Of a stretch of 64,000 nt of DNA, positions 1,417 through 31,322 are shown piece after piece; the first letter of the stretch is position 1; each line of letters begins with the position of its first letter. The DNA is taken from contig NZ_BBXF01000002.1 in assembly GCF_001570585.1 (NCBI RefSeq), forward strand, positions 1,825,765 to 1,889,764, read 5' to 3'. The position numbers and the translations under genes are program-made. Source of the stretch: Herbidospora daliensis. Its GTDB lineage: Bacteria > Actinomycetota > Actinomycetes > Streptosporangiales > Streptosporangiaceae. The notes beneath the pieces are model-generated. The model saw only the letters and a program-made list of their open reading frames with translations. It did no database searches and was not told the DNA's origin.

Positions 1417-2580
1417 ATGAGCTTTCCTCTGTACGCGCCGGCGGAGGAGCACGACATGCTCCGCGAGGCGGTCCGCGCCCTGGCAGAAGAGAAGATCGCC
1501 CCGCGCGCCGCCGCGGCCGACGAGAACGAGGAGTTCCCCGAAGACTCCTACAAAGACCTCGTCGCGGCCGATTTCCACGCGGTCCACGTGCCCGAGGAAT
1601 ACGGCGGCGCGGGCGCCGACGCCCTCGCCGCGGTGATCGTCATCGAGGAGGTGGCGCGGGTCTGCGCGTCGTCCTCGCTGATCCCCGCGGTCAACAAGCT
1701 CGGCACCGTGCCGCTGCTGCTGTCGGCGTCCGAGGAACTCAAGGCCGCCTACCTGCCTGCGGTGGCCCGGGGCGAGGCGATGTTCTCCTACGCCCTCTCC
1801 GAGGCCGAGGCCGGCTCCGACGCCGCCGCGATGCGCACCCGCGCCGTGGCCGACGGCGACTCCTACGTCCTCGACGGCGTGAAGACGTGGATCACCAACG
1901 CCGGGATCTCCGAGTACTACACGGTCATGGCGGTCACCGACCCGTCGGCGGGGGCGCGGGGCATCTCGGCGTTCGTGGTCGAGAAGTCCGACGAGGGCGT
2001 GTCGTTCGGGCCGAAGGAGAGGAAGCTCGGCATCAAGGGGTCGCCGACGCGGCAGGTGATCCTCGAAGGGGTGCGTATCCCGGCGTCGCGGATGATCGGC
2101 GAACCTGGGACGGGGTTCAAGACCGCGCTCGCGACGCTTGACCACACCCGGATCACCATCGCGGCGCAGGCTCTCGGCATCGCCCAGGGGGCGCTTGACT
2201 TCGCTGTCGGGTATGTCAAGGAGCGGCGGCAGTTCGGGAAGGCGATCGGCGACTTCCAGGGGGTGCAGTTCATGATCGCCGACATGGCGATGAAGCTGGA
2301 GGCGGCGCGGCAGCTGACGTATGCGGCGGCGGCCAAGAGCGAGCTGGCCATGCATGGGACGCCGGTTAAGGATCTGACGTTTTTCTCTTCGGCGGCCAAG
2401 ACTGCGGCGTCGGATGCGGCTATGGAGATCACGACTGACGCGGTGCAGTTGCTGGGCGGGTATGGGTATACGCGGGATTACCCGGTGGAGCGCATGATGC
2501 GCGATGCCAAGATCACCCAGATCTACGAGGGGACGAACCAGATCCAGCGCATGGTGATGGCTCGGCAGCTCCTGAAGTAG
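1417..2580 (+). CDS. acyl-CoA dehydrogenase; 3' end supplied by the integrated element
   Basis: FAD-dependent alpha,beta-dehydrogenation of an acyl-CoA thioester, in fatty-acid or branched-chain amino-acid breakdown. 387 residues, normal length. Visible motifs are the FAD/substrate loop [11 protein letters not shown] (about 130), WITNAG, the arginine-rich [13 protein letters not shown] and the C-terminal [10 protein letters not shown], whose Glu is the usual catalytic base. Bases 2509-2534 are repeated exactly at 31251-31276 together with a diverged copy of the gene's last 70 bases and terminator. The part after about 2534 therefore most likely came with the AICE and restores the reading frame. 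Exact acyl substrate cannot be read from the sequence. Confidence 0.93.
2509..2534 (+). repeat. attL core (26-bp direct repeat, left copy)
   Basis: Identical base for base to 31251-31276. It lies inside the acyl-CoA dehydrogenase reading frame and encodes KITQIYEG plus part of the next codon. Similarity continues with scattered mismatches to about 2638, so crossover most likely falls in this perfect block. Confidence 0.8.
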
Positions 2581-2594
2581 GGCCTGAACAGCGA

Positions 2595-2628
2595 AAACCC
2601 CGCCCAGGATGTCTCTGCGGCGGGGTTT
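2595..2628 (+). terminator. rho-independent-type terminator after the acyl-CoA dehydrogenase
   Basis: AAACCCCGCC (2595-2604) pairs perfectly with GGCGGGGTTT (2619-2628) across a 14-base loop, right after the stop codon. It is AT-flanked on both sides and could act in both directions, also ending the convergent int transcript. A near copy sits at 31337-31370. Confidence 0.75.
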
Positions 2629-2656
2629 CGTGGTTCGGCTCCGACGGCCTAAAGGA

Positions 2657-3916
2657 TCACTGTTCCGTGCCTGTTCCGTGAGAGATGAGACGCGGGCGGA
2701 ACAGGCGGTCGTCGATCGCCTTGCGGGCTCGGTCGTGGGAGCCGGGCATCAGGTGGGCGTAGACACGGAGAGTGAAGCCCGGGTCGGCGTGGCCGAGGTA
2801 CTCGGCGAGCTCCTTGACGGAGACCGCGCCGGCGAGCATCACGCTCGCGTAGTAGTGGCGGAGCTGATGGAGGCCCTCTTTGCGCGACGTTGCGAAGCGC
2901 GTGCGACTGTTGGCGTCCTTCGTCGGCGCGGGGATTACACCCGCAGCCACCAAGGCGGGTTTCCAGATCAGTTCGCTGTAGACCCGCGCCCTGATGAACC
3001 GGTCGTCGGTCCATTGGACGAGCAGGTTGTGGGTCCGCACTTTGCCGTTGAGCTTCTCCCAGGGCAGAGAGCAGGTCAGCGGCGGAAAGGCCGCCACATG
3101 ACGTCTGATGGCTTCGGCGGTCCATTCCGGCAGGGGAACGACCCGCTCACGGTCGTTCTTCGGCAGGGCGAAGACGTGTTCGCTGCCCAACTTCTTGATC
3201 TGGCGCCGGATCTGGAGCACCCGCCCTTCAAAGTCGATGTCCTCCAAGGCGAGGCCGAAGACTTCGCCCTGCCGGAGGCCGCACGACGCGGCGATGATCG
3301 GTACCAGCCGGAAGAACTCCTGGTGGGCGTGGATGATGCCGTGAACTCTCTCATCTGCCCATGCCGTCAGCTCCCCGCCAGACCGTCTGGGGACCTGGAC
3401 GATCGACGACCGGGCAGGGTTCTTCTTGATCGCCTCGTCCGCGACGGCCAGTTCGAGAACGCCTTGCAGGACGAGGAACGAGGTCTCGATGGTCGAAGGG
3501 CCGTAACGCTCGTTCAGGTCGCTGATCCATCCCTGGATGTGCGAGGGAAGGATGCTCTTCACCTGTCGCTTGTCGAAGGTGGGGGCGACGTGAAGGCGAT
3601 AGATGTACTCGTATCTGATCTTGGTGGCGGGGTCGACGATGCGTGAGTCCATCCACCGTTTGGCCACATCGGCGAAAAGGACCTTCCCTGCGTTCGGATC
3701 GATGTAGTCGCCTCGTCCCACGTCCGCTTCCATGGACGACGCATGCTTCTCAGCGTCCGTCTTCTTGGCGAAGGCCCGGGAGGCCTCTTTGCCGTTGGGG
3801 TCGAGCCACACGGCCAGCCAGCGCTTTCCTGCGCCGTGACGTGCGGTCTTGACCCGTCTGGTGCGTCCGTCCGGGTGCCGGACGGTCTTGTTCCAGAGAT
3901 CCTTGACGTAGGCCAC
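2657..3916 (-). CDS. int: tyrosine recombinase (integrase) of the AICE
   Basis: Site-specific recombinase that would insert and, with Xis, excise the element at the repeats. 419 residues: N-terminal arm-binding region (about 1-70), core-binding SAM-like domain (about 78-165) and catalytic domain. Catalytic residues are visible as R215 (CGLRQGE), H350 and R353 (HQLRHYYAS), H376 (LGHADPG) and the nucleophile Y386 (LRVYAHLM). The start is GTG at 3916, with AGGAG a few bases upstream inside the end of xis; the gap to xis is 3 bases, so the two are one transcript. The 3' end lies about 120 bp from attL, as expected for an AICE. A dead relative of this gene is at 55938-56460. Confidence 0.95.
   Translation of the reverse strand: MAYVKDLWNKTVRHPDGRTRRVKTARHGAGKRWLAVWLDPNGKEASRAFAKKTDAEKHASSMEADVGRGDYIDPNAGKVLFADVAKRWMDSRIVDPATKIRYEYIYRLHVAPTFDKRQVKSILPSHIQGWISDLNERYGPSTIETSFLVLQGVLELAVADEAIKKNPARSSIVQVPRRSGGELTAWADERVHGIIHAHQEFFRLVPIIAASCGLRQGEVFGLALEDIDFEGRVLQIRRQIKKLGSEHVFALPKNDRERVVPLPEWTAEAIRRHVAAFPPLTCSLPWEKLNGKVRTHNLLVQWTDDRFIRARVYSELIWKPALVAAGVIPAPTKDANSRTRFATSRKEGLHQLRHYYASVMLAGAVSVKELAEYLGHADPGFTLRVYAHLMPGSHDRARKAIDDRLFRPRLISHGTGTEQ
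2660..2680 (+). repeat. putative integrase arm site, left (two CTGTTCCGTG copies)
   Basis: CTGTTCCGTG occurs at 2660-2669 and again at 2671-2680, an 11-bp step (one helical turn). It overlaps the int stop region. The same pair in the same orientation with the same step lies at 31127-31147 inside the other end (20 of 21 bases equal). Confidence 0.55.
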
Positions 3917-3919: not shown

Positions 3920-4087
3920 CTACTCCTGTTCGCGAACCCAAGACAGAACGTCCTGAGGCAGATAGCGGAGGTGACGACCGACCCGGTGGCTCGGAGGACC
4001 TGTGCGGCGGTGCCGCCACTGGTAGAGGGTCGCGACGGGGACGCCGAGAAAGTCCGAGACGTCTTCAGGCGTCCAGAGGCGGCTCAC
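3920..4087 (-). CDS. xis: excisionase-like MerR-type helix-turn-helix protein (Xis)
   Basis: A 55-residue protein missed by size filters. It reads VSRLWTPEDVSDFLGVP, then TLYQWRHRRTGPPSHRVG and ends ...VLSWVREQE. The LWTPEDVSDFLGVPVATLYQWR block is the winged helix-turn-helix of the excisionase/DNA-binding domain family used by AICEs to bend attachment-site DNA during excision. The GTG at 4087-4085 is the only possible nearby start because an in-frame TGA lies three codons upstream. It is placed directly before int with a 3-base gap. Confidence 0.85.
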   Translation of the reverse strand: MSRLWTPEDVSDFLGVPVATLYQWRHRRTGPPSHRVGRHLRYLPQDVLSWVREQE

Positions 4088-4202: not shown

Positions 4203-5558
4203 TCAAATGGCACCGCCGACGATGGCTCGGGTGAGGGCCTGCTCGGCCAGGCTGAGCCCCTTCCCGGCATATGACCAGTCGCCGATGACGGCGACGGTGT
4301 CTTCCGGGAAGAGCGGGAGCCGGCCGGTGGTGATGGCCTCGCCGCGCCGGTGTTCTTCGCGGGCGGCCCGCAGCGCGCCGAGGGTGGTGGAGTAACGGCG
4401 GCTCTTGGTCGAGAAGTGCCCGCGGAATCCGAGCATGTGGGCCCAGCGGTCGAGCTTCAGGTCGGCCAGGTCGTCGAGGGCGGCTAGGCGGAAGCACTCG
4501 GCGATGTGGTGGCGGGCGTGCTCGGTGATGGGCAGGGCGGCGAGGTTCTCCAGCGGCTGGATGCGCCGATCGAGGGTGCCGGTGCTCTCGGCGGATTTGG
4601 TGGCGTATTTGGCGATGTAGCCCGCCACGGCCTGGTCGGTGAGGTCGCTGGCCAGCGTGATGGGGCGGACGTCAAGCTGCTTGCCCCAGGTCAGGGTTCG
4701 CTCGGGCAAATCGTCGATGGCGGGGATGGTCACCGAGACGACGCCGGCCGCGTGGTGGATGGCGTCCGTGAGCAGCGCGACTGTGGCCCAGGCCGGAGGC
4801 GGCGAGGCGGGTCCGTCCGGTCCATCGGGGCGGACGACGGCGTGGAAGTGCACGACGCCCCGGTGCTGATACTCGGCGACTTTGGCGAAGGAGATCGTGA
4901 GGACCTGGCGCAGTTCCTTGTTCGAGAGGCCCGACAGCCTGGCGACGCGACGGCGCAGCGCTTCGGTGAATCTCCGCCAGAGCTCGGGGGCCAGGGCGTT
5001 GAACAGCACGGCCTCGGTGTAGGCGTAGCAGTCGAAGCAGAAGGGCTGGCCGAGCCGCGGATCGTTGACGGCGTGCTTGGTCGGGCACGTCATCTTGACC
5101 CCGTGAGAGCAGGGCGGTGCCGCTCGCCGGACGCGGCAGCGCGGCACCTTGGCCTTCTTGGCGCCCCGGTTGTGGACGACGCCGAAGGACGGCGCGGTGA
5201 GTGTGACGAGCAGGCTCGGGTGGGCGACGACCGAGGCCGGGACGCCTTTCCCGCCGACCAAGCCGGCGCGCACCAGTTGATAGGTGTCGGCACGGTAGAT
5301 CTCCGCGCAGGCGGGGCAGCGGGTGGCGCGGCGGGTCTTGCAGGGGACGTTCAGCACGCCACTGGGTTCGGTACGCGTGGTGTAGCGGTGCAGGACGTCG
5401 CCGGTGGCCTGGTCGATGTGTTCGACGTGGCCGCGCAGCCGGATGGGCTGGCGGCAGCCACCCGTGCCGCGGATCTGGGACGCCCATCGGTCGAAGCCGG
5501 GGTCGTCCAGCCGGGCGATAATCCCGGCTATCACGTGCGCGTTGGTGTTCTGAGGCAA
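4203..5558 (-). CDS. repSA: RepSA-like rolling-circle replication initiator
   Basis: Initiates replication of the excised circular element. 451 residues from a TTG start (5558). N-terminal cysteine pairs (C81/C84 and a cluster around C141-C177) look like zinc ligands. GVVHFHAVV (H237, H239) matches the HUH metal-binding motif of rolling-circle nucleases. GYIAKYATK (Y314, Y318) is the likely catalytic-tyrosine motif. Size and motif order match the RepSA family of pSAM2-like elements. It lies upstream of xis-int with a 115-bp gap that could contain the double-strand origin, though I could not locate a nick site. Family assignment is good; exact catalytic Tyr is inferred. Confidence 0.9.
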   Translation of the reverse strand: MPQNTNAHVIAGIIARLDDPGFDRWASQIRGTGGCRQPIRLRGHVEHIDQATGDVLHRYTTRTEPSGVLNVPCKTRRATRCPACAEIYRADTYQLVRAGLVGGKGVPASVVAHPSLLVTLTAPSFGVVHNRGAKKAKVPRCRVRRAAPPCSHGVKMTCPTKHAVNDPRLGQPFCFDCYAYTEAVLFNALAPELWRRFTEALRRRVARLSGLSNKELRQVLTISFAKVAEYQHRGVVHFHAVVRPDGPDGPASPPPAWATVALLTDAIHHAAGVVSVTIPAIDDLPERTLTWGKQLDVRPITLASDLTDQAVAGYIAKYATKSAESTGTLDRRIQPLENLAALPITEHARHHIAECFRLAALDDLADLKLDRWAHMLGFRGHFSTKSRRYSTTLGALRAAREEHRRGEAITTGRLPLFPEDTVAVIGDWSYAGKGLSLAEQALTRAIVGGAI

Positions 5559-5848: not shown

Positions 5849-6139
5849 CTAGGACTCCTGAGTCCGGTACGGCGCGGCGGTGCTGCAGATCGCCACCGCC
5901 CTCCACTCGACGGGGCCGAAGCTCCGGCTGGTGGTGTAGTGGCCCCGCTCGAAGGTGATGGGCGCTTCAAACTGCGCGGCGTAGTCGTCGATCTCCGCCT
6001 TCATCACCTCGTCGGCCGCTCGGGTCGCGAAGGTGTAGACCGTGAGGTCGGCCAGCACCGGTATGGCGGGGCGGGCCTCCATGAAGTCGGCCAGGGCGCG
6101 CAGGCCGGCGATCATCTCGGTGCGCTGGTCGTTGATCAT
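5849..6139 (-). CDS. AICE-backbone hypothetical protein, 96 residues
   Basis: No family recognised. The protein starts MINDQRTEMIAGLRALADFMEARPAIPV and is predicted soluble and mixed alpha/beta. Its ATG overlaps the TGA of the SpdB-like gene (ATGA at 6139-6136), and its stop lies 3 bases before the next small gene, so it sits inside the tra-rep operon. Genes of this size and start (short helix, ARPDLPVP-like segment) are common in AICE backbones, but no role can be named from sequence alone. Confidence 0.7.
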   Translation of the reverse strand: MINDQRTEMIAGLRALADFMEARPAIPVLADLTVYTFATRAADEVMKAEIDDYAAQFEAPITFERGHYTTSRSFGPVEWRAVAICSTAAPYRTQES

Positions 6140-6693
6140 CTGGTTCCCTTCAGCGTGCGGAACAGGTCGGTCGCGAGCTGGGCGGAGACACCCAGCCGGG
6201 CTTGGAGCGTCGTGGGGCTGATGGCCTCGCCGTGCTTGGCGCGGTGTTCGTCGGCCAGGCGCTGTGCGTAGGCGACGAGCGCGGTAGATGGGCCAGGAGC
6301 GGGTTCGGCCGTGCTGGCGGCGCGGCGTTCGAGCATGGAGACCGCGATGAGGAAGGCGACGGCCGGTGTGGCGGCGGTGAGCCAGCCCCAGACGGTGGGG
6401 TAGGCCTGGTGCAGGTTGGCGGCCAGTGACAGGGTGATCCCGCCGGTCATGACCACGACAGGCCAGGACACCCGGCCGGTCGCGGTCCGGCCGGTCCGCT
6501 TGTCCCGCTGGCGTTCACGGGCGGCCATGACGCACGTCAGGTCGATGCAGATCGCGATGGCCCACGCCATCCAGCCGGTCTGGCCGTTCTCCAGGGCCGT
6601 TCGGCGGATGTGACTGAACGACCCGGCGCCCGCTATGAGCGCGAGGACGACGACCGGCCCGGAGTCGAGCAGCCAGTGAGCGACGCGGGACAC
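6136..6693 (-). CDS. SpdB/DUF2637-like spread membrane protein
   Basis: 185 residues. Four hydrophobic stretches are visible: LDSGPVVVLALIAGAGSF, MAWAIAICIDLTCVMAA, SWPVVVMTGGITLSLAA and WGWLTAATPAVAFLIAVS. A soluble C-terminal region contains a helix-turn-helix-like segment (SPTTLQARLGVSAQLATDLF). This architecture matches the DUF2637/SpdB proteins that help intramycelial spread of actinomycete plasmids and AICEs. The GTG start at 6693 has a strong AAGGAGG about 7 bases upstream. The upstream tra reading frame runs 179 bases into it in another frame. Confidence 0.8.
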   Translation of the reverse strand: MSRVAHWLLDSGPVVVLALIAGAGSFSHIRRTALENGQTGWMAWAIAICIDLTCVMAARERQRDKRTGRTATGRVSWPVVVMTGGITLSLAANLHQAYPTVWGWLTAATPAVAFLIAVSMLERRAASTAEPAPGPSTALVAYAQRLADEHRAKHGEAISPTTLQARLGVSAQLATDLFRTLKGTR

Positions 6694-8038
6694 CGATTTC
6701 CTCCTTCCGAGATCGAGCCATCAGGTCCGGGATGCGCGCGCCGGCCAGGACGGCACCCCAGCTCGGAGCCATGTGCGCCCATCGCTGGGTCGCTTCTTCC
6801 GCGGTCTCGTTGGCGACGAGTGAGGAGCGGGACCGGTACCACTGGCCGTCCTCGTGCGCCGCGATGGCGACGCCGGGGCTGGCGGCGGGGATCATGCGGG
6901 CCGAGTCGAGCGCGGCCGGATCGAGGTCGCCCAGCGCCATGACGGCCGTCTCGGGGTCGTTGACGCGGTGGCAGACCCGTCCTGAACACTGGGCGCGAAG
7001 GGCGGTGACGCCTGTGCCGAGGTCGGAGCCGATGCGCTGGCCGCAGCACACGAGGTAGATGCCGAACGCCCGGCCGAGCTGTGCCACGCGCAGGAGTGCG
7101 GTGGAGATCGCGGCGACCTCTTCTTTCTCGCTCTTGTCGGCCATGAGGTAGAGCTCGGCCAGCTCGTCGATCAGGATGACGACCGGGAGCGGCTGCAGGT
7201 CGGGGTGTAACTGCCAGATGTTGCGCGCCCCGGCCGCGCGGCAGGCGTCCATCCGGCGCTGCATCAGGGTGCCGACTTCATTGAGCAGGCTGAGGCACTC
7301 CGGCCGGGACGTGGCCAGCGCGGACAGCCGCGGGCTGTACGGGGCGAACTCGACGCCGCCCTTGAGGTCGAAGCCCACCAGGGCGACTGGTTGCGGAGCC
7401 AGCCCGACGATGAGGGCGTTGGCCAGGTTCGACTTCCCGGACTGGGTTGCCCCGGCCACCATCCAGTGCGGCACCGTCTTGAAGTCGATGATCCAAGGAC
7501 GGCCGGTCTCCAGACGTCCGACCGTGACCTGGAGCAGCTCGGCGGGGTTCGCCGGGGTGGCGACGTTCACCAGGGGATCGCGGATCGTGACCGACAGGAC
7601 GACCCGGCCCGGACGGGGTGAGCTGACCCGGACGCCGTGCATGCGCCAGGAGTGGGCCAGCCGTTCGGCGACCTTGCTGTAGTCCTGCGGAACCTGCCCT
7701 TCGAGCGTGCGGATGGTGACCCGCCAGCCGTGCCGGGTGGGCATCGGCCACCACATCCACGGCTTGGCGTCCAAGCCCACCCGGCGCCAGCGGCGGTTCA
7801 CCTGAACCGTGCCCGTCTCCAGGACCAGGCGCGGCACCCGCAGGAACCGAGGGCGCTGGCGTCTCTTGGTCAGGCCGCAGCCCAGGGCGATCTTCCGCCA
7901 GGTCAGTCGTACCCGGATGGAGGTCAGCAGGTAGCCGATCACGAGCCAGAACGAGGCGGCGTAGAAGTGATGCCAGGCCCAAAGCCCGGCCGCCGAAGCG
8001 GCCAGGGCGATGAGCGCGACGTGCAGCCCCTCAGGCAC
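6515..8038 (-). CDS. traSA: FtsK/SpoIIIE-like DNA translocase (Tra) for conjugation
   Basis: Single-protein conjugation motor that moves double-stranded element DNA between mycelial cells. 507 residues from a GTG at 8038 that overlaps the upstream stop by 8 bases and has GGGGAGG before it. An N-terminal membrane segment (about 5-40) is followed by Walker A GATQSGKSNLAN (about 196-207) and Walker B VVILIDELAEL (about 286-296). The last roughly 60 residues are read from DNA that also encodes the SpdB-like protein in another frame. A shorter ancestral stop may have been lost. Start choice rests on the coupling and ribosome site; a longer open frame to 8167 is unlikely. Confidence 0.9.
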   Translation of the reverse strand: MPEGLHVALIALAASAAGLWAWHHFYAASFWLVIGYLLTSIRVRLTWRKIALGCGLTKRRQRPRFLRVPRLVLETGTVQVNRRWRRVGLDAKPWMWWPMPTRHGWRVTIRTLEGQVPQDYSKVAERLAHSWRMHGVRVSSPRPGRVVLSVTIRDPLVNVATPANPAELLQVTVGRLETGRPWIIDFKTVPHWMVAGATQSGKSNLANALIVGLAPQPVALVGFDLKGGVEFAPYSPRLSALATSRPECLSLLNEVGTLMQRRMDACRAAGARNIWQLHPDLQPLPVVILIDELAELYLMADKSEKEEVAAISTALLRVAQLGRAFGIYLVCCGQRIGSDLGTGVTALRAQCSGRVCHRVNDPETAVMALGDLDPAALDSARMIPAASPGVAIAAHEDGQWYRSRSSLVANETAEEATQRWAHMAPSWGAVLAGARIPDLMARSRKEEIGVPRRSLAARLRAGRRPRAHSGRRVVQSHPPNGPGERPDRLDGVGHRDLHRPDVRHGRP

Positions 8039-8360
8039 GCACGTCCTCCCCGACGGGGAGGAGTGCGGCGGCCCGGTAGGAGATCCCCCACCGGCCATCG
8101 AAGTCCCAGAGGTAGCCGACCAGGCCGACCGGGTTGATCTGCTGGCCGGCGACCACGGGTGGTTCACCGCTGATGCCGATCTTCATCAGCTCAAGCCGCC
8201 CGGAGTCGTCTTCCACCGAGACGGTGACCTCGTAGACGACCTGGCCGGTCTTGTCGAGCTTGATCTCGCCGGTTTCGCGGTTCAGAAGGCGGGGCTTGGG
8301 GTTCTTCACGCAGGTGAGCGTGAGGCGGGTCGGGTCGACCGGGATCGGGATGGTGCGCAT
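8031..8360 (-). CDS. SCO3933-like AICE regulatory/accessory protein
   Basis: 109 residues starting MRTIPIPVDPTRLTLTC and containing LLNRETGEIKLDKTGQVVYE and VGLVGYLWDFDGRWG. This matches my memory of the SCO3933 family, found directly upstream of tra in actinobacterial integrative elements. A role in transfer or replication control is assumed from position only. It is the first gene of the leftward operon, with AGGAGG 6 bases before its ATG, and it faces the divergent GntR gene across about 136 bp. Confidence 0.75.
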   Translation of the reverse strand: MRTIPIPVDPTRLTLTCVKNPKPRLLNRETGEIKLDKTGQVVYEVTVSVEDDSGRLELMKIGISGEPPVVAGQQINPVGLVGYLWDFDGRWGISYRAAALLPVGEDVRA

Positions 8361-8496
8361 TTGCTTCCTCCTGAGAGCTTCCTAGAACACATGGAATACT
8401 TGGCATTCTAAGTTGTCAAGGGATTCTTTGGCGGCCTAGTTGGCAGGCCGGTCGTACTGTGCTGGACTGAGGGGATCACCTCATGAAGGGCAGGCC
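8361..8496. promoter_or_regulatory. divergent tra/korSA-type promoter region with palindromes
   Basis: Between the leftward tra operon and the rightward GntR gene. TTGACA (reverse of 8414-8419) is a good -35 for the leftward operon, though its -10 is weak. CGGCCT (8432-8437) and AGGCCG (8445-8450) form an inverted repeat with a 7-base spacer, a candidate operator for the adjacent GntR protein, by analogy with KorSA repressing the pSAM2 pra promoter. Confidence 0.5.
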
Positions 8497-8871
8497 ATGG
8501 TCGAGAAGACCGGGCGTCCGGGCTATCTCCAGATCGCCGACGACCTCCGGAGCCAGATCCAGTCAGGCAAGCTGACGCCCGGTGCCACGCTGCCGTCGAC
8601 GGCGGAACTCTGCGCGCGTTACGACGTTTCGGCGAGCGTCGTGAAATCGGCCATCTCTGTGCTTCGCACGGAGAAGCTGATCATCGGGCAGCAGGGCAAG
8701 GGCGTGTTCGTCCGGGAGCAACTGCCGGCCGCGCCGTCCGAGGTGTCTTCGGATGGGGAGTCCGAGCTCCTGCGGCAGCTCGTCATGATGCGCGAGGCGG
8801 TCCAGGACCTCGGGCAGCGAGTTGCGGATCTTGAGAAGATCGTCTTGTCAGAGCGGAAACGATCCGACTGA
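8497..8871 (+). CDS. GntR-family repressor (KorSA-like)
   Basis: 124 residues. A winged helix-turn-helix fills the first 70 residues (YLQIADDLRSQIQSGKLTPG, then LPSTAELCARYDVSASVVKSAI). A C-terminal helix (about 90-124, LLRQLVMMREAVQDLGQRVADLEKIV) looks like a short coiled coil for dimerisation instead of a full effector domain. The ATG at 8497 follows AAGGGCAGG. Short GntR proteins divergent from tra genes in AICEs repress transfer and replication, as KorSA does in pSAM2. Confidence 0.88.
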   Translation: MVEKTGRPGYLQIADDLRSQIQSGKLTPGATLPSTAELCARYDVSASVVKSAISVLRTEKLIIGQQGKGVFVREQLPAAPSEVSSDGESELLRQLVMMREAVQDLGQRVADLEKIVLSERKRSD

Positions 8872-22700: not shown

Positions 22701-22712
22701 CTCGATTCTTGA

Positions 22713-23629: not shown

Positions 23630-25120
23630 ATGACTCATGTCGCCGGCCAGCCCGACAGACGTTGGCTCATCCTGCTCCTGATATCGGCAGCCCAGTTGAT
23701 CGTGGTGTTCAACGACGCGATCATGACCGTTGCCCTGCCCTCCGCCCAGGCCGACCTGCACATCTCCGACGGGGGCAGGCAATGGGTGATCACCGCCTAC
23801 ATGCTGACCTTCGGCGGGCTGCTGCTGCTCGGTGGCCGCCTGGCGGACCTGCTGGGACGCAAGCTCGTCTTCATCGTCGGACTCATCGGGTTCGTCCTGG
23901 CATCCACTCTCGGCGGTGCCGCGGCCGCCCCCTGGATGCTGCTCGGCGCCCGCGCCCTGCAGGGTGCCTTCGGCGCCCTGCTCGCCCCGGCCGCCCTGTC
24001 GCTGATCTCGCTGGCCTTCCCCGACGGCAGAGAACGGGCCAAGGCCTTCGGCGTCTTCTCCTCCATCGTCATCACCGGTGGCGCGCTGGGGCTGCTGGCC
24101 GGCGGTCTGCTGACCGAGTACCTCACGTGGCGCTGGGCGATGTTCATCAACATCCCCCTTGCCGTGATTCCCATCCTCGGTGCGCTGGCCTACCTCCCGG
24201 CCCACACCGGGCGCGACCGCACCACCCGCCTGGACATCCCGGGCGCGGTGCTGGCCACTGCGGGCATCGTCGTCCTGATCTACAGTTTCACTCTGGCCGC
24301 CGACCACGGCTGGGGTGCCGGCGCCACTCTCGGCTCCTTCGCCGCGGCCATCGTGTTGCTGGGCGCCTTCACCCTGGTACAGGCCCGCACCCGCGATCCC
24401 CTCCTGCCGTTCCGGATCCTGACGGACCGCATCCGCCTCGGCGCCTACCTGTCGGCCGCGCTGGGAATGCTCAGCGCGTTCGGCCTGCTGCTCTTCCTGA
24501 CCTACTACCTGCAGACGGTCAAGAACTACTCGGCGGCGCTCACCGGCCTGGCGTTCCTGCCCATGGTCATCGCGCAGATCATCGGCGCCGCCCAGATCAG
24601 CGCCCGGCTGATGCACCGTGTCCGGCCCAGGATCTTGATGATCAGCGGCTATCTCGTCGCCGCCGCTTCCGTCCTGCTGCTCCTGCTGCTCGACACCGAC
24701 AGCTCCTACAGCCCGATCCTGCTCATCGCCTCGATCGGGATCGGCCTCGGGCTCGGCGTCGCCGTTATGCCGGCCACCAGCCTGGCCACGCATGGCACCG
24801 GCCACCGGGACGCGGGAGTCGCCTCAGCGATGATCAACGTTTCCCAGCAGCTGGGCGGAGCCATCGGCACAGCGCTGCTCAACACCGTCGCCACCAGCGC
24901 CACCGCCGCGTACCTGATCTCCCACCAGGCAGGACAGCCCGGCGTCGCGCTCGTCTACGGCTACCGCATCGGCTACCTGTGGATCGCCGGATTCCTCCTC
25001 GCGGCCGGCCTGATCTCGGTTCTGCTGGTCAACGCCGGACCTTCGGACGCCGAAAGCGAGAGCGCCGTCGTCGACGAGCCCGTTGACGAACTTGTCGGTG
25101 AGTCCACCGTGTCCACCTGA
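23630..25120 (+). CDS. MFS drug:H+ antiporter, DHA2 (EmrB/QacA) type
   Basis: 496 residues, 14 predicted membrane helices. After a short cytosolic start comes helix 1 with LIVVFNDAIMTVALPSAQ, the DHA2 form of motif C-like DxTIVNVALP. Motif A GGRLADLLGRK follows, and ALQGAFGALLAPAALSLIS is also characteristic. A polar C-terminal tail (PSDAESESAVVDEPVDE) is cytosolic. Exports a hydrophobic compound by proton exchange, probably the substrate or product of the surrounding oxidation genes, protecting the host. I take the ATG at 23630; a TTG at 23618 is in frame. Confidence 0.92.
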   Translation: MTHVAGQPDRRWLILLLISAAQLIVVFNDAIMTVALPSAQADLHISDGGRQWVITAYMLTFGGLLLLGGRLADLLGRKLVFIVGLIGFVLASTLGGAAAAPWMLLGARALQGAFGALLAPAALSLISLAFPDGRERAKAFGVFSSIVITGGALGLLAGGLLTEYLTWRWAMFINIPLAVIPILGALAYLPAHTGRDRTTRLDIPGAVLATAGIVVLIYSFTLAADHGWGAGATLGSFAAAIVLLGAFTLVQARTRDPLLPFRILTDRIRLGAYLSAALGMLSAFGLLLFLTYYLQTVKNYSAALTGLAFLPMVIAQIIGAAQISARLMHRVRPRILMISGYLVAAASVLLLLLLDTDSSYSPILLIASIGIGLGLGVAVMPATSLATHGTGHRDAGVASAMINVSQQLGGAIGTALLNTVATSATAAYLISHQAGQPGVALVYGYRIGYLWIAGFLLAAGLISVLLVNAGPSDAESESAVVDEPVDELVGESTVST

Positions 25121-25260
25121 CCGGCCCACTTCCATCTCGACCCGGCGCGCGAACAGGCATCGTCCTGGCAGGCCGCGTCACGCCTCGACCGCAGTGGCCA
25201 GGCGACCGTCCTCACGCCCGCCGGGCGAACCATGTCCTGCTCAACCAAAGGTGCAACCCA

Positions 25261-26319
25261 GTGAACGACGCCATCCGGGGCACGGCGCGCGGAACCGCGC
25301 CCGTCCCCCTGTCCGTGCTCGACCTGGTCCCGGTCGGCACCGGGACGACCCCAGCCCAGGCGCTGCGCAGCAGCATCGAGCTCAGCCGGATCGCCGACCG
25401 CCGCGGGTACCACCGACACTGGATCGCCGAGCACCATTCGGCGCCCAGCGTCGCCTCGTCCTCGCCGGCGGTGATCCTGGCGCACCTCGCGGCCCACACC
25501 CAGCGCGTGCGGCTCGGCTCCGGCGGGGTGATGCTGCCCAACCACCCGCCCCTGATCATCGCCGAGCAGTTCGGCGTTCTGGAAGCCCTCGCCCCCGGCC
25601 GCGTCGACCTCGGGCTGGGCCGCGCCCCGGGCACCGACCCGGCGACCGCCGCCGCGCTGCGCCGGAGCGACCAGGGAGGCGGCGACTTCCCGCAGCAGCT
25701 CAGCGACCTTCTCCGGTTCCTGGATGACGACTTCCCCGCCGGTCATCCCTACGCCCGGGTCCACGCCGTGCCAGGCCCGGTCCAAGGCGCGACGAGCCGC
25801 CCGCCGGTCTGGCTGCTCGGCTCCTCGGGGTTCAGCGCCCGGCTCGCCGGGACTCTGGGGCTGCCCTTCGCCTTCGCGCACCACTTCTCGGCCGACAACA
25901 CGGTCGCGGCGCTCGACCTGTACCGGCAGTCCTTCCGTCCGTCCACGCTCCTCGACGCCCCCTACGTGCTCATCAGTGTCAACACCATGGCGGCCGACAC
26001 GGAGCGTGAAGCACATCGCCAGGTCATGGCGGGTGCTCTGGCGATGATCCAGTTGCACGCCGGCCGGCTCGGTCTACTGCCCTCGCCCGAGGAGGCCGAG
26101 GCGTACGACTTCACCTCAGCCGAATGGAAGTTCGCTCAGAACTGGATTGCCGACATCGTGCACGGCACCCCGGACGCGGTCCGCAACGGCCTCAACGCGC
26201 TGCAGCAGCGCACCGGGGCCGACGAACTGATGCTTACCACCCTCATGAGCCACAGCAACGACGCACGCCTGCGCACCTACGAACTGATCGCCGACGCCTA
26301 CGGCTTCCCCCAGGACTGA
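25261..26319 (+). CDS. luciferase-like (LLM-class) flavin-dependent oxidoreductase
   Basis: 352 residues of the bacterial luciferase family: LSVLDLVPVGTGTTPAQALRSS, GYHRHWIAEHHSAPSVASSS, then RLGSGGVMLPNHPPLIIAEQ and RVDLGLGRAPGTDP. The subfamily matches MsnO8-like proteins that use FMNH2 and oxygen, or F420, to oxidise substrates. The SsuE-like reductase upstream could supply FMNH2. The GTG start at 25261 directly follows CAACCCA without a good ribosome site. Substrate unknown. Confidence 0.92.
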   Translation: MNDAIRGTARGTAPVPLSVLDLVPVGTGTTPAQALRSSIELSRIADRRGYHRHWIAEHHSAPSVASSSPAVILAHLAAHTQRVRLGSGGVMLPNHPPLIIAEQFGVLEALAPGRVDLGLGRAPGTDPATAAALRRSDQGGGDFPQQLSDLLRFLDDDFPAGHPYARVHAVPGPVQGATSRPPVWLLGSSGFSARLAGTLGLPFAFAHHFSADNTVAALDLYRQSFRPSTLLDAPYVLISVNTMAADTEREAHRQVMAGALAMIQLHAGRLGLLPSPEEAEAYDFTSAEWKFAQNWIADIVHGTPDAVRNGLNALQQRTGADELMLTTLMSHSNDARLRTYELIADAYGFPQD

Positions 26320-26362
26320 TCTGCGGCGTAATCCTGTATTGATCACGATGGAGAACACCAGC

Positions 26363-27577
26363 ATGAATCCCACCACCTCTACGAACAGCCAGCTCGACGG
26401 GCAGGCCAAAGCCGCCTTGACGGCACACCTGGTCGCCCGGGCGGCAGCCCTTCAACCGCTGCTGCGGCAGCACGCCGCTCAGGGTGAGGAGAACCGGGCC
26501 GTGACACCGGCCGTTGTCGAGGCACTGGGCGAGGCCGGTGTCTTCCGGCTGCTGACCCCCAGACGCTACGGCGGCCACGAGAGCAGCCTGCGGACCCTCA
26601 TCGAGGTGTCGCAGACGCTGGGGCGGGCCGACGGTTCGGCCGCCTGGGTCGGAATGATCATCTCCGTGACCAACTGGCTCGCCAGTCTCTTCCCCGACCA
26701 GGCGCAAGAGGAGGTCTTCGGCGCCGACCCCGACGCACGGGTGAGCGGCGTGGCCGCACCGACCGGCATCGGCGAACGCGTCACCGGCGGCTGGCGGGTG
26801 AGTGGCCGCTGGTCGTACAACTCCGGAGCTCCGTATGCGACCTGGGCAGCGGTCGGCGCTCTGCTCAAGGACGACCGTGGCGAGATCGCCGACCAGGCCC
26901 TGGTCCTGATCCCGGCCACCGACCTCACCATGGCCGACACCTGGCACACCGCCGGCATGCGGGGCACTGCCAGCAACACCCTGATCGGCACCGACGTCTT
27001 CGTCCCCGACCACCGGATCCTGTCGGTTCCGGCCGCCGCACAGGGCTGCTACCCACGCTCGCCCCGCCCAGAGCCGCTCTACGGCGCCGCGTTCGGGTCC
27101 ATGCTCGTGCTGTGCCTGACCGGGCCCCTGCTCGGCCTGGGCAAGGCCGCCCTCGACGCCGTGGTCGCCGCCGCTTCCACCCCGCTGTCATTCACCACCT
27201 ACGGACGACGCTCCGACTCGGTCGCTTTCCAGACGCAGATCGCCGAGGCCGCATTGAAGATCGAGACCGCCTGCCTGCACATCAACCGCGCGGCCGACGA
27301 CGTCGACATGGCAGCGCTCGCCGGGCCGCTGGACTATCCGGCGCGCGCCCGCATCAGAGCCCGGGCCGGACACGCGGTCCAGGAGATCCTCCAGGCGATC
27401 ACGATCCTGCTCAACGCGCACGGCTCTTCCGCCTTCGCCGAGGCCAGCCCTCTGCAGCGCATCTGGCGCGACGCCAACACCGCCGCCCGCCACGCCGGCT
27501 TGGTCCCCGCCGTCGGCCTGGAGGTCTACGGCAAGACCATGCTCGGCGTGGACGAGCACGTCAGCCACATGGTCTGA
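26363..27577 (+). CDS. group D flavin monooxygenase (acyl-CoA dehydrogenase fold, HsaA/DszC-like)
   Basis: About 404 residues with the acyl-CoA dehydrogenase fold but lacking the IYEGTNQ catalytic Glu segment of true dehydrogenases. Visible are VVEALGEAGVFRLLTPRRYGGHE, GRADGSAAWVGMIIS, GGWRVSGRWSYNSGA and WRDANTAARHAG, the pattern of two-component FMNH2-dependent hydroxylases such as HsaA, HpaB-like and DszC. It would hydroxylate an aromatic ring or heteroatom with FMNH2 from the SsuE-like reductase. The ATG at 26363 has GGAG 9 bases upstream; another ATG is at 26348. Confidence 0.9.
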   Translation: MNPTTSTNSQLDGQAKAALTAHLVARAAALQPLLRQHAAQGEENRAVTPAVVEALGEAGVFRLLTPRRYGGHESSLRTLIEVSQTLGRADGSAAWVGMIISVTNWLASLFPDQAQEEVFGADPDARVSGVAAPTGIGERVTGGWRVSGRWSYNSGAPYATWAAVGALLKDDRGEIADQALVLIPATDLTMADTWHTAGMRGTASNTLIGTDVFVPDHRILSVPAAAQGCYPRSPRPEPLYGAAFGSMLVLCLTGPLLGLGKAALDAVVAAASTPLSFTTYGRRSDSVAFQTQIAEAALKIETACLHINRAADDVDMAALAGPLDYPARARIRARAGHAVQEILQAITILLNAHGSSAFAEASPLQRIWRDANTAARHAGLVPAVGLEVYGKTMLGVDEHVSHMV

Positions 27578-27637
27578 CCCCTACGGCCCGGCCGACACGT
27601 CGTCTTTATCGAATCCGTCAAAGAGCGCAGGTGTGAT

Positions 27638-28426
27638 GTGAAGATCGAACGATACGTGGTCGACGGAGTGTTCGTGGAACACGCCGCCCCGGAAGGCACG
27701 ACCGCCGCACCGCCCATCGTGTTCGTGCACGGCGGCAGTCACGGAAGCTGGCTGTGGGAGAACTGGCTGCCCTACTACGCCGACCTGGGCCGGCACAGCT
27801 ACGCCTTCAGCTGGTTCAACCACACCGGATCCCAGGACCTCCCGACCGAGGAGTTCGTCCAGCGGAGCATGCTAGACGCCACTCGCGAACTGGACATCGT
27901 CGTCTCCCACATCGGCCGGGAACCGGTGCTGGTGGCGCACAGCATGGGTGCCGCGGTGGCGCAGAAATACTCCGAGAACCACCCCGTGCGGGCCCAGGTG
28001 CTGCTCGCCCCGGTGCCGTGCACGGCAAGCGCGGGCGAGGCGATCCCGCTGCCGGTGGATCTGTCGGCGCCGTTCCCGCCGATGCCGTACGACATGGCGG
28101 TGCAATGGTTCTTCGCCGGGTGCACAGAGCAGGACGCCCGCCGCTACCACGGCCTGATGCCCGACGAATCACCAAAGGCCGTGTGGGAGGCCGCACAGCG
28201 CGGGGCGGCCATCGAGCTGGACCGGACCCGGGTGAGCGGCCCCATGCTCGTCATCGCCGGCGGACAGGACGTCGTCTCACCCGCGCCTCTCGTGCGGGAG
28301 CACGCCGCCCACTTCGGCGCCGACTACCTCTACCTCGCCGACCGTGCCCACAGCTTGATCCTCGAACCGCGATGGCGCGAGGTGGCCGACCGCGTCAACT
28401 CCTGGCTGAGCCGCACCGCCTGGTGA
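27638..28426 (+). CDS. alpha/beta hydrolase
   Basis: 262 residues. Oxyanion motif FVHGGSHGSWLWENW, nucleophile elbow VAHSMGAAVAQ (Ser), acidic residue in AGGQDVVSP and catalytic His in DRAHSLILEP. Hydrolyses an ester, lactone or C-C bond; in aromatic catabolism such enzymes follow ring opening. The GTG start at 27638 is 60 bp after the monooxygenase stop, so it is in the same transcript. Substrate cannot be read from sequence. Confidence 0.9.
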   Translation: MKIERYVVDGVFVEHAAPEGTTAAPPIVFVHGGSHGSWLWENWLPYYADLGRHSYAFSWFNHTGSQDLPTEEFVQRSMLDATRELDIVVSHIGREPVLVAHSMGAAVAQKYSENHPVRAQVLLAPVPCTASAGEAIPLPVDLSAPFPPMPYDMAVQWFFAGCTEQDARRYHGLMPDESPKAVWEAAQRGAAIELDRTRVSGPMLVIAGGQDVVSPAPLVREHAAHFGADYLYLADRAHSLILEPRWREVADRVNSWLSRTAW

Positions 28427-28557
28427 ACCTTCGCCGGGTCAGCGGCGCGATGACACTCGAGGTCGGCGACCAGGCGGACGCCCAGGTCGCCGCACCCGAG
28501 ATCAACGTCACGCCCCAGCTGGTCTTCGTATGAGATCGAGATCCGTACCATCAGAAC

Positions 28558-29139
28558 TCACCCGAGGGCGTCGAGCGCGATTTCGACCACTGCCATGAGC
28601 GACACGCGGTCGGGGTTCACTGAACCCATGACCCGCAGACCGTGCATCGTCATGACGAGGTAGCGGGCCACGTCTCGCGCATCACGTTCACCGGACAGCT
28701 GGCCATCCGCCTGCGCTTCCGCGACGACTTCATAAAGCGCGTCCTCAAGAACCTCTGTCGTCGACTGCACATGCGCGGCTACCTGCGGGTCGTGGGCGAT
28801 CCGCCCGACAGCAGCGCCGATGATCAGGCAGGCTTCGCGGCTGCCGTCGCGCACGATCTCGTCCACCGCCGCTACCAGGACATAACGCAACAGTTCACGG
28901 CCCGGCGCGCCCTGGCGAAGCTGTTCGACCAGCGGCAGCGCGTAGCCTTCCCGGTAGCGGTCCATCGCCGCGAGGTACAGACCCTCTTTGCTGCCGAAAG
29001 CGGCGTACAGCGAGCCGCGGCCCACGCCGGTAGCGTCGACCAGGTCCGAAATCGAAGTGCCGTCGTAGCCGTTGCGGCGGAAGGCATTCATCGCCGCCTC
29101 CACGGCCATCTCGATATCGAACTCCCTTACACGCGCCAT
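28558..29139 (-). CDS. TetR-family repressor of the flavin-oxidation cluster
   Basis: 193 residues. The N-terminal HTH is AMNAFRRNGYDGTSISDLVDATGVGRGSLYAAFGSKEGLY in pieces around residues 14-50, and a helical ligand-binding domain follows, of the TetR_C_16-like type. The ATG at 29139 gives MARVREFDIEMAVEAA; TATACT ends 6 bases upstream, so translation is probably leaderless. GGAACGAAC in its own promoter matches half of the operators at 21096 and 22713. The likely role is repression of the SDR and SnoaL-like promoters plus itself, relieved by the cluster substrate. Confidence 0.88.
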   Translation of the reverse strand: MARVREFDIEMAVEAAMNAFRRNGYDGTSISDLVDATGVGRGSLYAAFGSKEGLYLAAMDRYREGYALPLVEQLRQGAPGRELLRYVLVAAVDEIVRDGSREACLIIGAAVGRIAHDPQVAAHVQSTTEVLEDALYEVVAEAQADGQLSGERDARDVARYLVMTMHGLRVMGSVNPDRVSLMAVVEIALDALG

Positions 29140-29145
29140 ATCAGG

Positions 29146-29175
29146 AGTATACGCCCATATCGGAACGAACAGTAC
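29146..29175 (-). promoter_or_regulatory. tetR promoter with operator half-site
   Basis: TATACT (reverse of 29146-29151) is 6 bases before the ATG at 29139. GGAACGAACAGTACAG (29161-29176) shares its first nine bases with the upstream flank of both TetR-type operators, at roughly the -35 position. Confidence 0.4.
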
Positions 29176-29176
29176 A

Positions 29177-29749
29177 GAATCCGGCGCACGGTTTGAGAGT
29201 CGCCTTGCCGGGCCTCCTGAGAGCGAGCTCGACGTCAGCACGGAAGACCGCCGCCAACCTCTTCCGCAGTGCCACGACCTGGGCTTGCGAGCGGCAGGAA
29301 GAAGGATCCGCTCATGAGACTTGTCGGCGGCCCTTGATCGGGGGCGCGGCTACGGAAGGATCTCCTGCCGCAGGCCGTCGATGTGGCGGTAGCGGGCTGG
29401 GGCCGCCGTGATCAGGCCAGCCACGGTCCAGGGCGTAGGCGACCGGAGCACGGTATTGACCGGCGCGTGGTGGTGAAGGCGGCGACTCGCGCGTGCAGGT
29501 TCAGGTAGTCGGGCTCGATGGCGCTGGCGCGGGCGGGAACACCACGGCGGACCTCGCCCCACCGGGGATGGGAGAAGGTGCCATGCGCCGCGGGTTAGAC
29601 CTGAACCCCGCGTCAATGTCCTCCTTTCTGTCCGCCCAGGTCAGAGGTGCTTTAGGTATTTACGTGGAGGGTATTCCCCACCTCGTGCTCATGCACGTCG
29701 GTGATGCCCCCGGGTCGCCGCCCATGCCGCGATCCGGAGGACGATCACC
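29177..29749. other. gene-poor interval before the oxalate decarboxylase gene
   Basis: About 570 bp. Minus-strand frames around 29350-29616 look like fragments of a small protein (HARVAAFTTT-like stretch) but are broken by stops. No intact gene, palindrome or terminator recognised except a weak GGGTATTCCCCACC motif near 29668. Confidence 0.35.
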
Positions 29750-30907
29750 GTGAAGAAGCCTAAGCAGGACAACATCCCGCACCCGCAGCGCAATGGCAGC
29801 GGCGGCCTCGACACCGGTCCCCGCAACATCGAGCTCGACCTGCAGAACCCCGACCTGCTCTCACCGCCGGTCACCGACCACGGCACGCTTCCGAACCTGA
29901 AGTTCTCCATGTCGATGGCGCACACCCGGATAGAGGAGGGCGGCTGGACCCGCGAGGTCACTCAACGGGAACTGCCGATCGCCTCCACGCTGGCCGGGGT
30001 GGACATGAAGCTCAACCCGGGTGCCTACCGTGAGCTGCACTGGCACAAGGAGGCCGAGTGGGCGTACGTGCTGGAGGGCGGCTGCCGGATCGGTGCGGTT
30101 GACCAGGAGGGCCGCAACTTCCTGGACGACGTCCGCAAGGGTGACCTGTGGTTCTTCCCCAAGGGCATCCCGCACTACATCCAAGCGCTGGATGAGGGCG
30201 TGGAGTTCCTGCTCGTCTTCGACGACGGTCAGTTCTCCGAGAACGCCACGTTCATGATGAGCGACTTCTTCGCCCACACGCCCAAGAGTGTCCTGGCCAA
30301 GAACTTCGGCTGGACCGAAGACCAGATGGCCGCCATGCCGGAGAAGGAGAAGTACATCTTCAAGGGCGAGGTGCCGCCCGCCCTCCAATCCGACAAGGTC
30401 GTCAGCCCCACCGGCGACGTGCCCGACTGGTTCAGCCACCGGCTGCTCGCGATGGAGCCCGAGCGATTCCCCGGCGGCACCGTACGCGTCGCCGACTCGC
30501 GGAACTTCAAGGCGGCCACCACCATCTCTGCGGCACTGATCGAGATCGCCCCTGGCGCGATCCGGGAGCTGCACTGGCATCCGACCGACGACGAGTGGCA
30601 GTACTACATCTCCGGTCACGGCCGCATGGGCGTGTTCGCCGGCTCCGGTCTGGCCAACACCTTCGACTTCCAGGCGGGGGACGTCGGCTACGTGCCCTTC
30701 GCCTACGGGCACTACATCGAGAACCTGGGCGACGAGCCGCTGGTCTTCCTGGAGATGTTCCGCAACCCGCTGTTCCAGGACGTATCGGCGGCCCAGTGGA
30801 TGGCCAACCTGCCGCCGCAGGTCAGCGCCGACACGATCAACGTGCCCCGCGAGCTGATCGAGGCGCTGCCCAAGCACAAGCGCCCTCTCGCCACCAGGAA
30901 CAGATGA
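29750..30907 (+). CDS. oxdC: oxalate decarboxylase (bicupin)
   Basis: Converts oxalate to formate and CO2 with manganese and oxygen. 385 residues, the same length as the well-studied bacterial OxdC. Two cupin domains each show the metal motif: ELHWHKEAEWAYVLEG (about 95-110) and ELHWHPTDDEWQYYISG (about 272-288). The lid segment FSENATF matches the SENST loop whose Glu distinguishes decarboxylase from oxidase. No signal peptide. The GTG start at 29750 has GGAGG upstream. It is the last cargo gene, about 340 bp from attR, and could serve acid stress or oxalate use. Confidence 0.93.
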   Translation: MKKPKQDNIPHPQRNGSGGLDTGPRNIELDLQNPDLLSPPVTDHGTLPNLKFSMSMAHTRIEEGGWTREVTQRELPIASTLAGVDMKLNPGAYRELHWHKEAEWAYVLEGGCRIGAVDQEGRNFLDDVRKGDLWFFPKGIPHYIQALDEGVEFLLVFDDGQFSENATFMMSDFFAHTPKSVLAKNFGWTEDQMAAMPEKEKYIFKGEVPPALQSDKVVSPTGDVPDWFSHRLLAMEPERFPGGTVRVADSRNFKAATTISAALIEIAPGAIRELHWHPTDDEWQYYISGHGRMGVFAGSGLANTFDFQAGDVGYVPFAYGHYIENLGDEPLVFLEMFRNPLFQDVSAAQWMANLPPQVSADTINVPRELIEALPKHKRPLATRNR

Positions 30908-31250
30908 TCACCTGGCCGGGCCGAGGGCGAGTTGTGATGCCCTTCTGGCCTTGCTTCGCGTGCCGGCGGGGTCACGCCCACCAGCCGGTGAAGGGACCTG
31001 AGGCCCACATGGGTGTGCACGCTTCGCAGGTGCAGTCGAACTGACGGCGGTGAGGTGGTGACATCACAGAACGTATGGACGGCGTGCTTTGGCCGTGGGT
31101 CGGATTGACGGCTCAACGATCATGATCTGTTCCGTGGCTGTTCCGTGGAAGAGCGGAAGATGGCCAAAGACGATGGAAGTTTCCGGCAAGCGTTCGCCCT
31201 GCTCACGCGCTTGATCGAGAAATTTTTCCAGGTGGCTGGTTCCCAGCGAG
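30908..31250. other. right arm of the element (non-coding)
   Basis: 343 bp between the oxalate decarboxylase gene and attR. It contains the paired arm site 31127-31147. Short frames on both strands are not credible genes. This would be one half of the attP region in the excised circle. Confidence 0.55.
31127..31147 (+). repeat. putative integrase arm site, right (two CTGTTCCGTG copies)
   Basis: CTGTTCCGTG at 31127-31136 and 31138-31147, 103 bp inside the right core. It matches the left pair at 20 of 21 bases. Here it is non-coding, so conservation cannot be explained by protein sequence. Confidence 0.55.
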
Positions 31251-31322
31251 AAGATCACCCAGATCTACGAGGGGACCAACCAGATCCAGCGGATGGTGAT
31301 GGCTCGGCAGCTCCTCAAGTAG
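31250..31322 (+). pseudogene. displaced original 3' end of the acyl-CoA dehydrogenase gene
   Basis: Reads [20 protein letters not shown] then LLK and a TAG at 31320-31322, the same protein end as 2509-2580 but with synonymous differences (for example GACC for GACG, CGG for CGC, CTC for CTG). No start and no upstream coding part. This is the chromosome's own gene end, separated from its body by the insertion. Confidence 0.88.
31251..31276 (+). repeat. attR core (26-bp direct repeat, right copy)
   Basis: Exact match to 2509-2534. The bases immediately left of both copies are unrelated, whereas bases to the right stay similar through the stop codon and terminator. This marks it as the boundary where element DNA meets the original chromosome. 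Confidence 0.8.

Follow-up and report, generated by a model that had tools for sequence, protein, structure and literature searches.

A pSAM2-type integrative element with the catalytic-motif codons of an acyl-CoA dehydrogenase gene as its probable target in Herbidospora daliensis

Introduction

Why does one stretch of the Herbidospora daliensis genome carry the 3′ end of an acyl-CoA dehydrogenase (ACAD) gene twice, with an integrase gene beside the first copy? The stretch, called the window throughout, is 64,000 nucleotides long (assembly GCF_001570585.1, contig NZ_BBXF01000002.1, positions 1,825,765 to 1,889,764). A preliminary description had placed an actinomycete integrative and conjugative element (AICE) between the two copies and had suggested that the element rebuilds the gene it enters. 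From sequence comparison we consider it very probable that a 28.7-kb pSAM2-type AICE is integrated here, that its tyrosine integrase recombines the element's attachment site (attP) with the catalytic-motif codons near the ACAD 3′ end, and that the gene is rebuilt in the process. Tyrosine-integrase AICEs lie in their vast majority at tRNA 3′ ends, the pSLS subfamily excepted, in the sections of Ghinet 2011 (PMC3218068) drawn on here.

Results

The attachment region comprises the following features, with positions in the window.

1417..2580, + strand: ACAD gene, type A, 387 aa, intact open reading frame (ORF) (Pfam Acyl-CoA_dh_N/M/1)
2509..2534, + strand: left attachment site (attL) core repeat, 26 bp, exact; ATCACCCAGATCTACGAGGG is 2512-2531
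2532..2580, + strand: putatively element-borne ACAD 3′ tail including the stop, from tail comparison
2580..2641, + strand: terminator-like hairpin between the convergent ACAD and integrase (int) genes (-40.7 kcal/mol, z -5.4)
2661..2679, + strand: left arm-like repeat pair, TGTTCCGT at 2661 and 2672, within the 3′ end of int, with a putative arm function
31128..31146, + strand: right arm-like repeat pair, TGTTCCGT at 31128 and 31139
31251..31276, + strand: right attachment site (attR) core repeat, exact
31277..31391, + strand: displaced ACAD tail, stop and terminator of element type, presumably from an older occupant

The identical 26-mers at 2509-2534 and 31251-31276, in the same orientation, are where the preliminary description put them, and they form the left part of a longer repeat (2509-2649 against 31251-31391; 141 bp, 91.5%, E 4e-54) that holds the last 23 ACAD codons, the stop and the terminator-like hairpin. 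Leftward of the core the similarity ends sharply (9 of 31 positions equal), and the right copy has just those last 23 codons and no rest of the gene. Five exact direct repeats of at least 22 bp exist in the window: two (26 and 23 bp) are the att repeat, two connect int with the decayed int gene of the 56-kb region, and the fifth is a local tandem. ARAGORN finds no tRNA gene in the window that could have been the target. Over the last 22 codons the window tail and the displaced tail differ in three codons, all three synonymously. The post-stop hairpins of both copies outfold shuffled sequences (z -5.4 and -6.0), and similar post-stop sequence is absent from the unoccupied genomes G001 and G018 and from six Nonomuraea sites; we read the hairpin at 2580..2641 as element-borne. 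Open full-length counterparts of the window ACAD (95-99% identity) are present in all six congeners. Judged from these comparisons, the window gene is a hybrid of a host 5′ part and an element-supplied 3′ tail.

The core encodes I-T-Q-I-Y-E-G-T, catalytic glutamate included. A PDB search aligned residues 12-384 of the window protein with 20-389 of the medium-chain acyl-CoA dehydrogenase (MCAD) chains 1ege and 1egc (396 residues), which we take to be human; window Glu371 corresponds to MCAD residue 376, provided the last stretch is ungapped, and the core repeat thus contains the catalytic codon. The proposed target is the set of codons for K-I-T-Q-I-Y-E-G-T near the ACAD 3′ end. Besides the core, the attP would comprise a whole ACAD 3′ tail, in frame and with its stop, the terminator, and pairs of arm-type sites on both sides. 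Integration would join the host 5′ part to the element tail, giving attL and leaving the ACAD intact, and would displace the host's own tail to the right end as attR. Only 76 bp separate the ACAD stop from the int ORF. The left arm-like repeats lie within the last codons of int (window 2657-2680), so that the int C-terminus and the repeats are under mutual constraint. Altogether TGTTCCGT occurs five times on both strands of the window, four of these in the two arm-like pairs.

Rightward of the left repeat follow the backbone genes.

2657..3916, - strand: tyrosine integrase (int), 419 aa (Pfam Phage_integrase, Phage_int_SAM_3)
3920..4087, - strand: excisionase-like HTH_17 protein (xis), 55 aa, putative function
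4203..5558, - strand: RepSA replication initiator (PF20199, 3.1e-159)
6136..6693, - strand: DUF2637 protein, SpdB-like; start codon uncertain, overlaps tra
6515..8167, - strand: FtsK/SpoIIIE-type transfer protein Tra (PF01580, 1.6e-26), transfer predicted from sequence
8031..8360, - strand: SCO3933-family protein (NCBIfam NF051478, above cut-off)
8440..8871, + strand: GntR-type helix-turn-helix (HTH) regulator; its HTH part fits 24 NCBIfam GntR/MocR-type models, each below cut-off

Domain matches thus bear out the int, xis and RepSA-SpdB-Tra order that had been read from the letters. A tyrosine integrase at an att site, a RepSA-type initiator, single-protein transfer of the FtsK/SpoIIIE kind, an excisionase-like gene and direct-repeat att sites, five of the marks of a pSAM2-type AICE, are all found. 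By its domain content this set of seven genes is a pSAM2-type backbone, and an ordinary one for an AICE. The DUF2637/SpdB-like protein presumably has a role in spread, xis would act as excisionase, and the element would be expected to excise and to transfer.

The choice of target recurs among relatives of the integrase. A scan of one genome per species returned 35 loci, three of them distant (25-34%) and 32 with a best segment of 53-95% identity. An ACAD 3′ end stands beside int in 28 of the 35, which are 28 of the 32 at or above 53% best-segment identity. In 26 of these 32 an ACAD gene and int converge, their 3′ ends no more than about 1.4 kb apart, and in two (L032, L034) an ACAD tail, not a whole gene, lies beside int. 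Of the other four, L015 has its ACAD 13 kb off within the same island, L016 and L033 lie at contig ends, and L018 has no ACAD. Among distant integrases (31-47%) no ACAD was found in any of 26 control loci, drawn from 20 genomes elsewhere in the phylum (396 searched), within up to 1.5 kb on each side, several being cut by contig ends. Integrases of intermediate similarity (35-53% by tblastn, in Nonomuraea) likewise had no ACAD in any of five stretches, each 5-8.5 kb long; one of the five has a contig end 149 bases away. On the strength of this recurrence, which together with the tails supports the earlier suggestion of an ACAD 3′ end as target, we propose an ACAD-targeting integrase clade whose members adjoin an ACAD 3′ end. 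The targeted ACADs are of three types (A, B and C), sorted by tail; the window gene is type A.

Could the repeat instead have come from homologous recombination or duplication of the ACAD 3′ end, in a general island without precise boundary? The 16 left/right tail pairs compared, which include decayed islands and one Kribbella island (G070) without this integrase, bear on this. Left out were L006 and L008, whose second tail is on another contig, and the third tail of the type B locus of Nonomuraea maritima G065; int loci outside the 16 have a single tail in the stretch examined. At that Nonomuraea locus (L136-L138) three type B tails follow one another at intervals of about 19.9 and 6.6 kb, and the last of them is partial. 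All 16 pairs have their divergence point at the same two codons, which speaks against that origin: at the positions just left of the AG of the AAG codon 0 and 2 of the 16 pairs match, followed by 15, 13, 15, 12 and 16 over AG-ATC, and matching stays high through the tail. Across the 16 pairs 49 codon differences are synonymous and 13 are non-synonymous. The core conforms to AAGAT-N7-ATCT, N7 being CACCCAG, CATGCAG or CTACACC, identical between left and right in 12 of 16 pairs. We infer that N7 is the strand-exchange overlap, which in the window would be the 7 bp at 2514-2520.

Repeat spacing counts against the same alternative. Within a pair the two TGTTCCGT copies are 11 bp apart; counted from the last sense base, their positions are about +84/+95 for the left pair and -191/-180 for the right. 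The left pair is exact in 11 of the 16, has one copy in four and none in one; for the right pair the figures are 12, two and two. Distances from the GAG codon are 132-136 and 143-145 bp in the type A and B loci of Streptosporangiaceae (142 alone in L032), 98-113 in L012, L029 and L034, and 155-169 in L020 and Kribbella, and L035 has no repeats of this type. A lambda-like attP carries arm-type integrase sites, and we read the TGTTCCGT pairs as such sites. For an island of the general kind speak the strain-specific right flank, in the stretches compared, and a variable region reaching about 81 kb, which makes the island larger than the repeat pair. Beyond the right tail, the flanks of 11 islands have only scattered short matches with the other flanks compared. 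Given the constant divergence point, the fixed spacing and the empty site of a sister element described next, we regard this origin of the repeat as highly improbable, and at sequence level the boundaries of the AICE are established.

Nonomuraea thailandensis (G067) has a 19.7-kb sister element whose int is 74% identical, with one TAA in the match, and G142, from the same genus set, has the same locus without the element. Positions 1-3142 of the G067 stretch equal 581-3716 of G142 at 95.5%, and 22805-22993, tail plus about 120 bp of flank, equal 3646-3835 at 90.6%; the collinear flank continues to 31993 and 12975, respectively, with gaps of up to about 1.1 kb. Left of the core G142 is attL-like (37 of 39 positions, against 15 of 39 for attR), and its tail slightly prefers attR (46 of 49 against 44 of 49 for attL). 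This alignment demonstrates an empty site for the sister element. The N. thailandensis flank was used to search 54 genomes for further candidates. G134, G119, G114, G118 and G062 have an intact ACAD and a match of 174-187 bp (78-89%) across the tail and the start of the flank; the bases inspected show neither an element-like terminator nor arm repeats, and beyond the match the flanks diverge where followed. With the Kribbella G070 flank as probe the best match was G109, with no ACAD in its 20 kb, and the N. dietziae G068 flank gave matches of at most 130 bp in other genomes.

Around the window, six Herbidospora-like congeners were compared, reaching 3.5 kb downstream in G003, about 30 kb in G002 and about 54 kb in the other four. 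The unoccupied G001 has no int at E 1e-40 and no second tail in 40 kb, and 7.9 kb of its own precedes the shared flank. The flank common to G001, G004 and G005 starts about 81 kb past the ACAD stop in G000, against 7.9, 38 and 51 kb in these three. In G003 the short contig end includes a tail of element type and no int, and in G005 a distance of 29.5 kb separates the ACAD from a second tail. One further feature in the window belongs here.

55911..56460, - strand: decayed integrase of the same family, pieces of aa 233-392 (tblastn 71-83% identity), interrupted at 56087-56209

No att copy lies beside this decayed int. The displaced tail with its element-type terminator, the unshared flank and the decayed int of the same family together suggest that the insertion hit an occupied site: an older element of the same type was probably there before the present one entered, and the present element probably forms a single layer within an accretion hotspot about 81 kb long. 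The insert of about 120 bp in the decayed int was considered as a miniature inverted-repeat transposable element and rejected, since 116 bp of it recur unchanged upstream of the window (L093:16878-16993); the upstream sequence has relatives in other genomes, and the insert is a small copied one. Also inside the hotspot, at 31464-52639, is a sugar-use region with three rhamnosidase-type genes, an ABC transporter, an aldolase/SDR fusion and a LacI regulator.

Several observations weigh against an AICE with an ACAD target as set out above. The empty site anticipated by the preliminary description was found for the sister element, G067 against G142, but not for the window itself: the junction 2534/31277 is not seen in the stretches from the six congeners. 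The flank from 31392 to the decayed int has no match in those stretches, and the rhamnosidase beside the right flank was found in its own genome only among 16 searched (E ≤1e-100). In G142 the first 40 post-stop bases, compared ungapped, agree with attR at 13 and with attL at 16 positions, whereas the gapped BLAST match fits attR; small indels shift bases and leave the ungapped comparison indecisive. Several of the 16 pairs come from decayed islands (G065 type A, G011, L027, L028, G005). In L009, L011, L013 and L014 int is 0.8-1.4 kb from the ACAD and not immediately adjoining, and L018 (Actinomadura, 55%) has arm-like repeats and no ACAD in its 11.3-kb locus. The Kribbella G070 pair has no TGTTCCGT repeats, and no relative of this integrase is detectable there; the ACAD target may therefore also be used by a different integrase. 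As to a free form, no plasmid record and no phage record has an integrase of at least 60% identity, and the best integrase match in viral contigs is 54%.

Some of these loci deserve description. The L018 int (around 5001-6266) sits after a small gene, itself after a reading frame that by eye we take to be RecR-like; this locus is a possible switch out of the ACAD family. In G070 (L110-L112, oriented 3168-34381) a 31-kb island lies between exact 81-bp ACAD tail repeats. In the two viral contigs with 54% integrases the sequence ends directly after int, and no viral contig has the exact arm-pair pattern. An ACAD-like tail is found in 350 plasmid records (20 of the 350 inspected). NZ_LT559118.1 (L157) of Nonomuraea gerenzanensis, labelled plasmid I, is of chromosome-like size at 11.85 Mb, and the ACAD tail matches it at four places.

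The element measures about 28.7 kb, of which some 22 kb is cargo.

9130..10161, + strand: AAA_33/zeta-like kinase protein
10522..11895, - strand: Shedu-type SduA protein, defence cargo (Pfam SduA_C; PADLOC SduA 9.1e-84)
13184..18065, - strand: PIG-L, two epimerases, FGE-sulfatase-like protein, two ORFs without family
18317..20824, no single strand: ORF without match above the Pfam cut-off, HAD hydrolase, F420H2-dependent quinone reductase
20971..30907, no single strand: SDR, FMN reductase, SnoaL, MFS, luciferase-like monooxygenase, ACAD-like enzyme, hydrolase, TetR and, at the right end of the cargo, an oxalate-decarboxylase-type bicupin

So large a cargo raises the question of whether 2535-31250 is a composite and the AICE proper just its left 9-12 kb, from int to Shedu. 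The same int type and tails occur in islands of 7.8-8.7 kb (G064, G060), though with partial rep matches, and parts of the cargo turn up again past the same ACAD in G006 (84% over 5.0 kb, 45 kb downstream), G005 (87% over 1.5 kb, 1.2 kb downstream) and G004 (82% over 1.1 kb, 9 kb downstream). However, the element region holds no third core copy with up to three mismatches, the right repeat pair adjoins the core at 31251, and the right end matches that of G005 (83% similar to 30985-31372). A composite seems unlikely to us; cargo may have been gained later within one element.

A further question is whether the integrated element has become immobile and is vertically inherited. Four of the six congeners (G002, G004, G005, G006) have only int fragments beside the ACAD, which speaks for such a history. 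In the window, by contrast, int, xis, rep and tra are all open, both repeat pairs and both cores are intact, and the tail differences are exclusively synonymous. We hold immobility to be doubtful, if less so than a composite, and continue with a potentially mobile AICE.

How does such an integrase come to be beside three types of ACAD? The type B tail is found in L007, L010, L017 and L030, and with one residue changed in L032; the type C tail, IYTIFEGTSEIQRL or IFAIFEGTSEIQRL, in L012, L020, L021, L022, L029 and L034, type C being a grouping by tail only. Complete genes of types B and C share 35-44% identity with that of the window, and in every type the element tail fits its own target gene. 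On an integrase tree of 24 rows, two type B rows are nested among Nonomuraea type A rows (support 100/99). The target changes at least four times on this tree, a number as low in 8 of 200 shuffles; 10 of 21 inner branches are unresolved, which makes deeper switches unsure. In the genome that holds the window the motif pattern with up to one mismatch occurs at five places, all of them ACAD-like genes or the displaced tail, and the own-genome type B and type C genes have no int in 3-kb stretches.

On a broader reading, the DNA that encodes the catalytic motif of an enzyme superfamily has become the specialised target of this integrase clade, as tRNA genes are for other integrases. The closely similar codons around the catalytic glutamate in ACAD paralogues would let it shift between them, swapping the 7-bp overlap and the matching tail while core frame and arm repeats are kept. 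Selection on the host enzyme would maintain the att site, and each insertion would rewrite C-terminal codons. We find the case for this broader reading evenly balanced.

Discussion

How much of this is new? AICEs in protein genes are already known, as are rebuilt metabolic genes, with e14 in icd as the example. The preliminary description had called a metabolic protein gene an unusual attachment site. That tRNA genes are the rule stands, but a protein gene as AICE target is not new, for in the portions of Choufa 2022 (PMC9513070) considered here 14 of 51 Streptomyces AICEs have protein genes as targets (rlmN and a glycosyltransferase gene among those named). With the pSAM2-type AICEs treated in the corresponding sections of Ghinet 2011 (PMC3218068) the present element shares int/xis/rep/tra modules, RepSA, an FtsK-type Tra and integration at a gene 3′ end; it differs in using an ACAD gene where the vast majority of those with tyrosine integrases use tRNA 3′ ends. 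The Streptomyces protein-gene elements have the AICE backbone, protein targets, and accretion and decay at one site in common with it, whereas the target genes named in those portions of PMC9513070 are others. Tandem or accreted elements are likewise known, and protein genes are a minority, in the parts of both papers used (PMC3218068, PMC9513070). The term "acyl-CoA" has no occurrence in the main text of either Ghinet 2011 (PMC3218068) or Choufa 2022 (PMC9513070).

Prophage e14 in Escherichia coli icd (PMC6379469) also completes a metabolic enzyme gene with a 3′ end of its own, the displaced tail there being 163 bp long; it is a phage with a single target gene, and the excerpt of that paper used here does not mention paralogue use. 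A phiC31 pseudo-attB in an ACAD gene of S. rimosus (PMC7890619, in the part considered) shares the ACAD gene as integration site, but there a phiC31 plasmid entered an imperfect second site and disrupted the gene.

PhiC31 integrase is a serine integrase. In the open-licence literature searched, supplements being outside its scope, we found no description of an ACAD-targeting AICE, of targeting of the ACAD active site or of an integrase family that changes target in this way, and the use of the ACAD catalytic motif as a target across ACAD types looks new.

With this finding, the logic behind tRNA targeting would apply also to the codons for a protein family's active site. It would also offer a natural series of integrases in which the target gene has changed from one member of an enzyme superfamily to another, with much of the att layout preserved, which makes target switching by tyrosine integrases testable. 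For the Streptosporangiaceae and Kribbella, the ACAD 3′ end becomes a site worth searching for cargo such as the Shedu-type gene found here, and the element described may serve as a candidate integration system for Streptosporangiaceae genera and Kribbella.

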